Shown one piece after another: positions 10,572-12,041 of a stretch of DNA of 39,190 bases. The translations under genes and the position numbers were made by a program. Each line of letters opens with the position of its first letter. Position 1 is the first letter of the stretch. Origin of the DNA: a candidate division SR1 bacterium (lineage in GTDB: Bacteria > Patescibacteriota > Gracilibacteria > Absconditabacterales > Absconditicoccaceae). The stretch is from positions 1 to 39,190 of the forward strand of contig SKJI01000004.1 in assembly GCA_007115995.1 (NCBI GenBank). The letters run 5' to 3'. The notes under the pieces were generated by a model, which ran no database searches, had not been told where the DNA came from, and worked only from the letters and a program-made list of their open reading frames with translations.

Positions 10572-12041
10572 TTTATGAAGAGTTTGACCCTGGCTCAGGA
10601 TGAACGCTAGCGAGGCGCCTAACACATGCAAGTCGAATGCTTCGGCATGGCAAACGGGTGCGTAACACGTGCTTAACCTGCCCTTTGGTAGGGGATACCT
10701 GTAGAAATACAACTAATCCCCTATAAGTCCTACCAAATGAAAATAGGTAGAAGAAAGGTTTACCGCCAAAGGAGGGGGGCGCGGTCTATTAGCTTGTTGG
10801 TGAGGTAATGGCTCACCAAGGCAATGATGGATAGCTGGTCTGAGAGGATGATCAGCCACAATGGAACTGAGACACGGTCCATACCCCTACGGGGGGCAGC
10901 AGTGGGGAATATTGGACAATGGGGGAAACCCTGATCCAGCGACCTCGCGTGGAGGATGAAGCATTACGGTGTGTAAACTCCTTTTCTGGAGGAAGACGAC
11001 TGACGGTACTCCAGGAATAAGGGACGGCTAACTACGTGCCAGCAGCCGCGGTAATACGTAGGTCCCAAGCGTTATCCGGATTTACTGGGCGTAAAGCGTC
11101 CGTAGCCGGTTGTATAAGTCTGTATTCAAATACCTGGGCTCAACCTAGGAAAGGGTATAGATACTGTATAACTTGAGTAAGATAGGGGGTAGTAGAATTT
11201 CCAGTGGAGGGGTGAAATCCGTTGATATTGGAAGGAATACCAAAAGCGAAGGCAGCTACCTATATCTTTACTGACGGTCAGGGACGAAAGTCTGGGTAGC
11301 AAACGGGATTAGATACCCCGGTAGTCCAGACTGTAAACGATGCTCGCTAGGTGTGTAGAGCCCTCGAGGTGCTATGTGCCGTAAGCTAACGCGTTAAGCG
11401 AGCCGCCTGAGTAGTATAGTCGCAAGGCTGAAACTCAAAGGGATAGGCGGGGGAACACACAAGCAGTGGATTGCCTCGATTAATTTGATAATAAGCAAAG
11501 AATCTTACCTAGGCTTGACATCTTTGGAATTCTATCGAAAGACTGAAGTGCCAGCTTGCTGGAGCCAAATGACAGGTGCTGCATGGCCGTCGTCAGCTCG
11601 TGCCGCAAGGTGTCGGGTTAAGTCCCGAAACGAGCGCAACCCTCGTCGTTAGTTAGGATGTCTAACGAGACTGCCTCCGTAAGGAGGAGGAAGGAGAGGA
11701 TGACGTCAGGTCACTATGGCCCTTATGCCTAGGGCGTCAGAGACAATACAATGGGTAGTACAACAGGTAGCCAAGCCGCGAGGCGGAGCCAATCCTCTAA
11801 AACTATCCTCAGTGCGGATTGAAGTCTGGAACTCGACTTCATGAAGTTGGAATTGCTAGTAATGGTGGGTCAGCCATACCGCCGTGAATATGTCCCTGTT
11901 CCTTGCACTCACCGCCCGTCATACCATGGGAGTTGAGGCTCTCTGAAGATGCGCCATGCGTGTTGAGGAGAGAATCAATGACTGGGGTAAAGTCGTAACA
12001 AGGTATCCCTACGGGAACGTGGGGATGGACCACCTCCCTAA
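10572..12041 (+). rRNA. rrs: 16S ribosomal RNA
   Basis: About 1.47 kb. Landmarks: GTGCCAGCAGCCGCGGTAATAC near 11036-11057, ATTAGATACCCCGGTAGTCC near 11309-11328, AAGTCGTAACAAGG near 11990, and a CACCTCC anti-Shine-Dalgarno tail at 12031-12037. Several near-universal positions differ: ACCC for AUCA at 16-19 (E. coli numbering), GGG for UGA at 916-918, A921 and U1396, G923 and C1393. Most are paired substitutions. It follows 5S instead of leading the operon. The short hypervariable loops are typical of candidate-phyla bacteria. Confidence 0.96.

Follow-up and report, generated by a model that had tools for sequence, protein, structure and literature searches.

Two-sided base-pair changes in the central pseudoknot and helix 28 of an Absconditabacterales 16S rRNA

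The 16S rRNA gene in a 39,190-nucleotide stretch of a candidate division SR1 genome (the whole stretch is hereafter called the window) differs from that of E. coli on both sides of several base pairs in the central pseudoknot (helix 2) and in helix 28. This raises the question of whether the paired changes are genuine, how widely they are shared, and what accounts for them.

Base states and pairing in the window

The gene occupies 10572..12040 on the forward strand and is the sole SSU copy found in the whole 1.0 Mb assembly, a 50-contig draft of a genome that is 94.5% complete. The covariance-model check proposed by the sequence-only reading aligned the entire gene to RF00177 (cmscan; 1420.3 bits, above the gathering score, model positions 1-1533). 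Positions equivalent to E. coli 17-19 read CCC (10588..10590) and those equivalent to 916-918 read GGG (11440..11442), both located by motif anchoring and alignment. In helix 28, alignment places A at 921 (11445..11445), paired with U (T in the DNA) at 1396 (11909..11909), and G at 923 (11447..11447), paired with C at 1393 (11906..11906), all on the forward strand. The base states originally proposed were thus confirmed letter by letter. Non-homology of these positions, named by the same reading as what would refute it, is excluded, because the ten trait columns of a MAFFT alignment of 135 rows (the window 16S and E. coli rrsB, plus 133 further SSU genes) matched independent motif anchoring in every row (0 of 135 disagreeing).

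All three helix 2 pairs examined in the window (17-918, 18-917 and 19-916) are C-G. The claim that all three become C-G was nevertheless too broad, since 18-917 is C-G in E. coli and the window alike; two of the three pairs differ from E. coli, and only 17-918 departs from the usual bacterial state. In helix 28, 921-1396, 922-1395, 923-1393 and the pairs beyond them are standard, and every other pair inspected in helices 1, 2 and 28 is intact.

Covariation and distribution of the changed pairs

The comparison across phyla that had also been suggested showed that the four pairs co-vary almost perfectly over Patescibacteria, Bacillota and Thermoplasmatota. Among all readable SSU rows, 17-918 (U-A or C-G) and 923-1393 (A-U or G-C) are always Watson-Crick, with no mismatch, and neither of the intermediates U17-G918 and C17-A918 was seen. 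A single U-G wobble was found at 19-916 (L151) and a single mismatch at 921-1396, an A-A in L077 (G097) that could be a persisting intermediate or an error in the sequence. On a quick maximum-likelihood tree built with the ten trait columns left out, the two sides of each pair changed in agreement in five of five independent contrasts for 17-918, four of four for 19-916, two of three for 921-1396 and three of three for 923-1393. The third 921-1396 contrast showed no difference and none went in the opposite direction, giving p = 1.2e-4 in a sign test pooled over the 14 informative contrasts.

The affected positions had been described as nearly universal in bacteria, which holds for 17-918 and does not hold for 19-916, 921-1396 or 923-1393. 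At 19-916 the description fails because C19-G916 is the ordinary bacterial state, present in all 28 Bacillota rows and in 126 of 137 readable Patescibacteria rows, and published as the common bacterial alternative to 19A-916U in helix 2 (PMC5329695). That alternation resembles the present case in being a pair-preserving double change in the same helix; however, the window carries the common 19C-916G, and its rare change affects 17-918 in the same helix. Among the sampled Patescibacteria, A921-U1396 is more frequent than any other state (89 rows, against 35 with U-A), in a sample where the window's class is over-represented, and on the tree it extends across that class. G923-C1393 maps to the window's family. 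Across the phylum, G923 occurs in 37 of 380 genomes, the window's included, and the other 36 lie outside its family, spread over 15 other family codes.

G923-C1393 is also present in all 30 readable, genuine Thermoplasmatota/archaeal SSU rows. The archaeal SSU core thus shares this pair with the window and, in some Thermoplasmata (L007 and L018), C17-G918 as well, but archaea keep U921-A1396 and the window 16S is bacterial throughout. The shared 923-1393 and 17-918 states are of independent origin. Among the changed pairs, only C17-G918 is truly rare.

The rare pair C17-G918

A pattern scan for G918 in context was run over 84,980 species genomes, one per species, excluding contigs below 3 kb; the exact surrounding motif is demanded, so that it overlooks 16S genes that have diverged, as well as short contigs. 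It returned 27 matches, namely 24 of Absconditabacterales type, two in Thermoplasmata and one chance match, or 26 SSU genes in the collection. The match L006, on a euryarchaeote contig, is put down to chance because an archaeal 16S of the normal type is present elsewhere in that genome. C17 stands opposite G918 in all 22 SSU matches with a readable 5' end. The Absconditabacterales-type matches have CCC/GGG where readable, together with A921 and G923; the two from Thermoplasmata have CCC/GGG, but U921-A1396. These two are placed apart from each other on the tree, among U17-A918 relatives, and represent independent gain(s) in Archaea.

In the panel, 17-918 is U-A in every bacterial row outside the window's family. 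Within Absconditabacterales, U17-A918 is found in two well-separated lineages (L053/G027 and L045/G011), each nested beside C17-G918 relatives. These reflect either reversion to U-A or repeated gain of C17-G918, a choice left undecided because some inner family branches are weak (support 42 and 51); both sides changed together either way.

C17-G918 is a clean and almost diagnostic signature of Absconditabacterales in rRNA. It also provides natural evidence that even U17-A918, within the central pseudoknot, is replaceable, given a two-sided change. A literature search on Patescibacteria, 16S and the pseudoknot found nothing, subscription journals and rRNA databases being outside its scope, and the signature may be unreported so far. 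In addition, A921, G923, C1393 and U1396 fall within universal-primer sites (907-926 and 1392-1406) and therefore bear on the amplicon detection of Absconditabacterales.

Some labels in the collection disagree with the 16S genes that they cover. Two contigs binned as Limnochordia (L026) and Roizmanbacteria (L008) carry Absconditabacterales-type 16S genes and are probably misbinned, the Roizmanbacteria bin also holding a second, different 16S. A contig labelled Peribacteria (L015) has an Absconditabacterales 16S placed inside that clade, and its genome is probably mislabelled.

Explanations for the paired changes

The most probable account by a wide margin is that of an ordinary, functional Absconditabacterales 16S whose core helices changed stepwise by compensatory substitution while keeping Watson-Crick pairing. 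A921-U1396, common to the rest of the window's class and much of the phylum, would have been in place when G923-C1393 was added in the window's family; C17-G918 would have arisen within the family, with at least two more two-sided switches at this pair inside it. The changes at 17-918 (U-A to C-G) and 923-1393 (A-U to G-C) may have passed through tolerated G-U wobble intermediates, a route that would be impossible for 921-1396 (U-A to A-U). Helix 2 would still close the central pseudoknot and helix 28 form the neck, as in other ribosomes, and we infer that the changed helices, C17-G918 included, function as before. Published E. coli experiments describe helix 2 as essential and its complementarity as needed (PMC5329695, relaying also Poot et al. 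1998); at 19-916, the combinations 19A-916U, 19C-916G and 19A-916G work, whereas 19C-916U fails (PMC5329695).

The changes also have company elsewhere in the molecule. Further fixed or near-fixed double changes were found in the family at 955-1225 (U-A to A-U), 1352-1370 (C-G to G-C) and 953-1228, and most members show C-G to G-C at 962-973; we take these four to be pairs from the established 16S structure. Single changes at conserved sites, such as 894 and 1381, occur as well. The pseudoknot is therefore not singled out among the double-changed core pairs of the clade; compensatory change is general across the 16S of this lineage, a pattern in favour of ordinary neutral compensation. The case is one of textbook compensatory evolution, real, well supported and partly lineage-diagnostic.

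An assembly or sequencing artefact, or a chimeric 16S, might be suspected in a draft of 50 contigs, but its probability is negligible. Sequence error is excluded, as originally argued from the pairing, because the same states recur in about 23 Absconditabacterales genomes that separate projects assembled independently, among them the complete chromosome CP006913.1; this recurrence already refutes the artefact. Moreover, the window 16S belongs to a 27-row Absconditabacterales clade (support 100) that includes CP006913.1 and named SR1/Absconditabacteria genomes, and its sister is CALGNI010000038.1 (L012; 88.3% identity, support 100). A tie between the changes and the recoding of UGA as glycine, with effects on decoding or termination, is very improbable. 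The clade is a known UGA recoder (PMC8629427) and the window's genes have open reading frames only under code 25, as in a ClpB-like ORF (32220-34388, 24 TGA) and a MutL-like ORF (14669-16474, 30 TGA). Nevertheless, 921A-1396U and 923G-1393C occur in many Patescibacteria families outside the recoded group, C17-G918 is present in Thermoplasmata too, and the h34 segment 1050-1059 of the window, C1054 included, is identical to that of E. coli.

A further explanation, unlikely though less so than the previous two, is that a G-C-rich helix 2 and G923-C1393 are adaptive, helping the pseudoknot and neck to form in a family that has lost RbfA, a factor that takes part in forming the pseudoknot and in maturing helix 28 (PMC8201178). 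Searches for RbfA (PF02033) recovered it in none of 36 family genomes (the window's genome and 35 relatives), against 18 of 23 other members of the class. A class-specific profile gave nothing convincing in 45 family genomes, with no match in the window's 94.5%-complete genome and two marginal matches elsewhere (E 0.018 and 0.028), the stronger of which (G008) lies within an 898-aa ORF that, to judge by its length and by where the match falls, looks unrelated to RbfA. Across the phylum panel, with the window's family set aside, RbfA is present in six of 36 G923 genomes, compared with 89 of 134 A923 genomes listed. However, the panel is so strongly related by descent that it leaves a single informative RbfA-G923 contrast, and a first look in which G923 was confined to genomes lacking RbfA (33 of 33, among 178 genomes) was dropped when the complete list gave six G923 genomes that retain it. 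Both U17-A918 lineages also lack RbfA, the C17-G918 Thermoplasmata sit among U17-A918 relatives, and the same clade is marked by double-changed pairs far from the pseudoknot. RimM is absent throughout the class and hence offers no contrast. Loss of RbfA is also patchy throughout the phylum in the genomes screened, which weakens the link further. Patchy rbfA loss and near absence of rimM are already described across the Candidate Phyla Radiation (PMC12641178), a reduced ribosome biogenesis that agrees with the present case in phylum, in patchy rbfA loss and in near absence of rimM, whereas a search of that work found no description of the base pairs discussed here. It is accordingly doubtful that strengthened C17-G918 and G923-C1393 help RbfA-less Patescibacteria to fold the 30S subunit, with rRNA sequence partly replacing a conserved assembly factor; the correlation with RbfA is best taken as a lead for hypotheses on ribosome assembly in reduced bacteria.

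Two minor features of the locus deserve mention. The rRNA genes at 7242-12040 lie on a single strand in the order 23S-5S-16S instead of 16S-23S-5S, an arrangement also found at five further Absconditabacterales loci (L003, L010, L013, L016 and L024). At the 3' end of the 16S (12024-12040), the window reads GGACCACCTCCCT, its sister L012 CCACCTTTCT and L053 CCACTATCCT, so that the anti-Shine-Dalgarno core is variable among these three family members.
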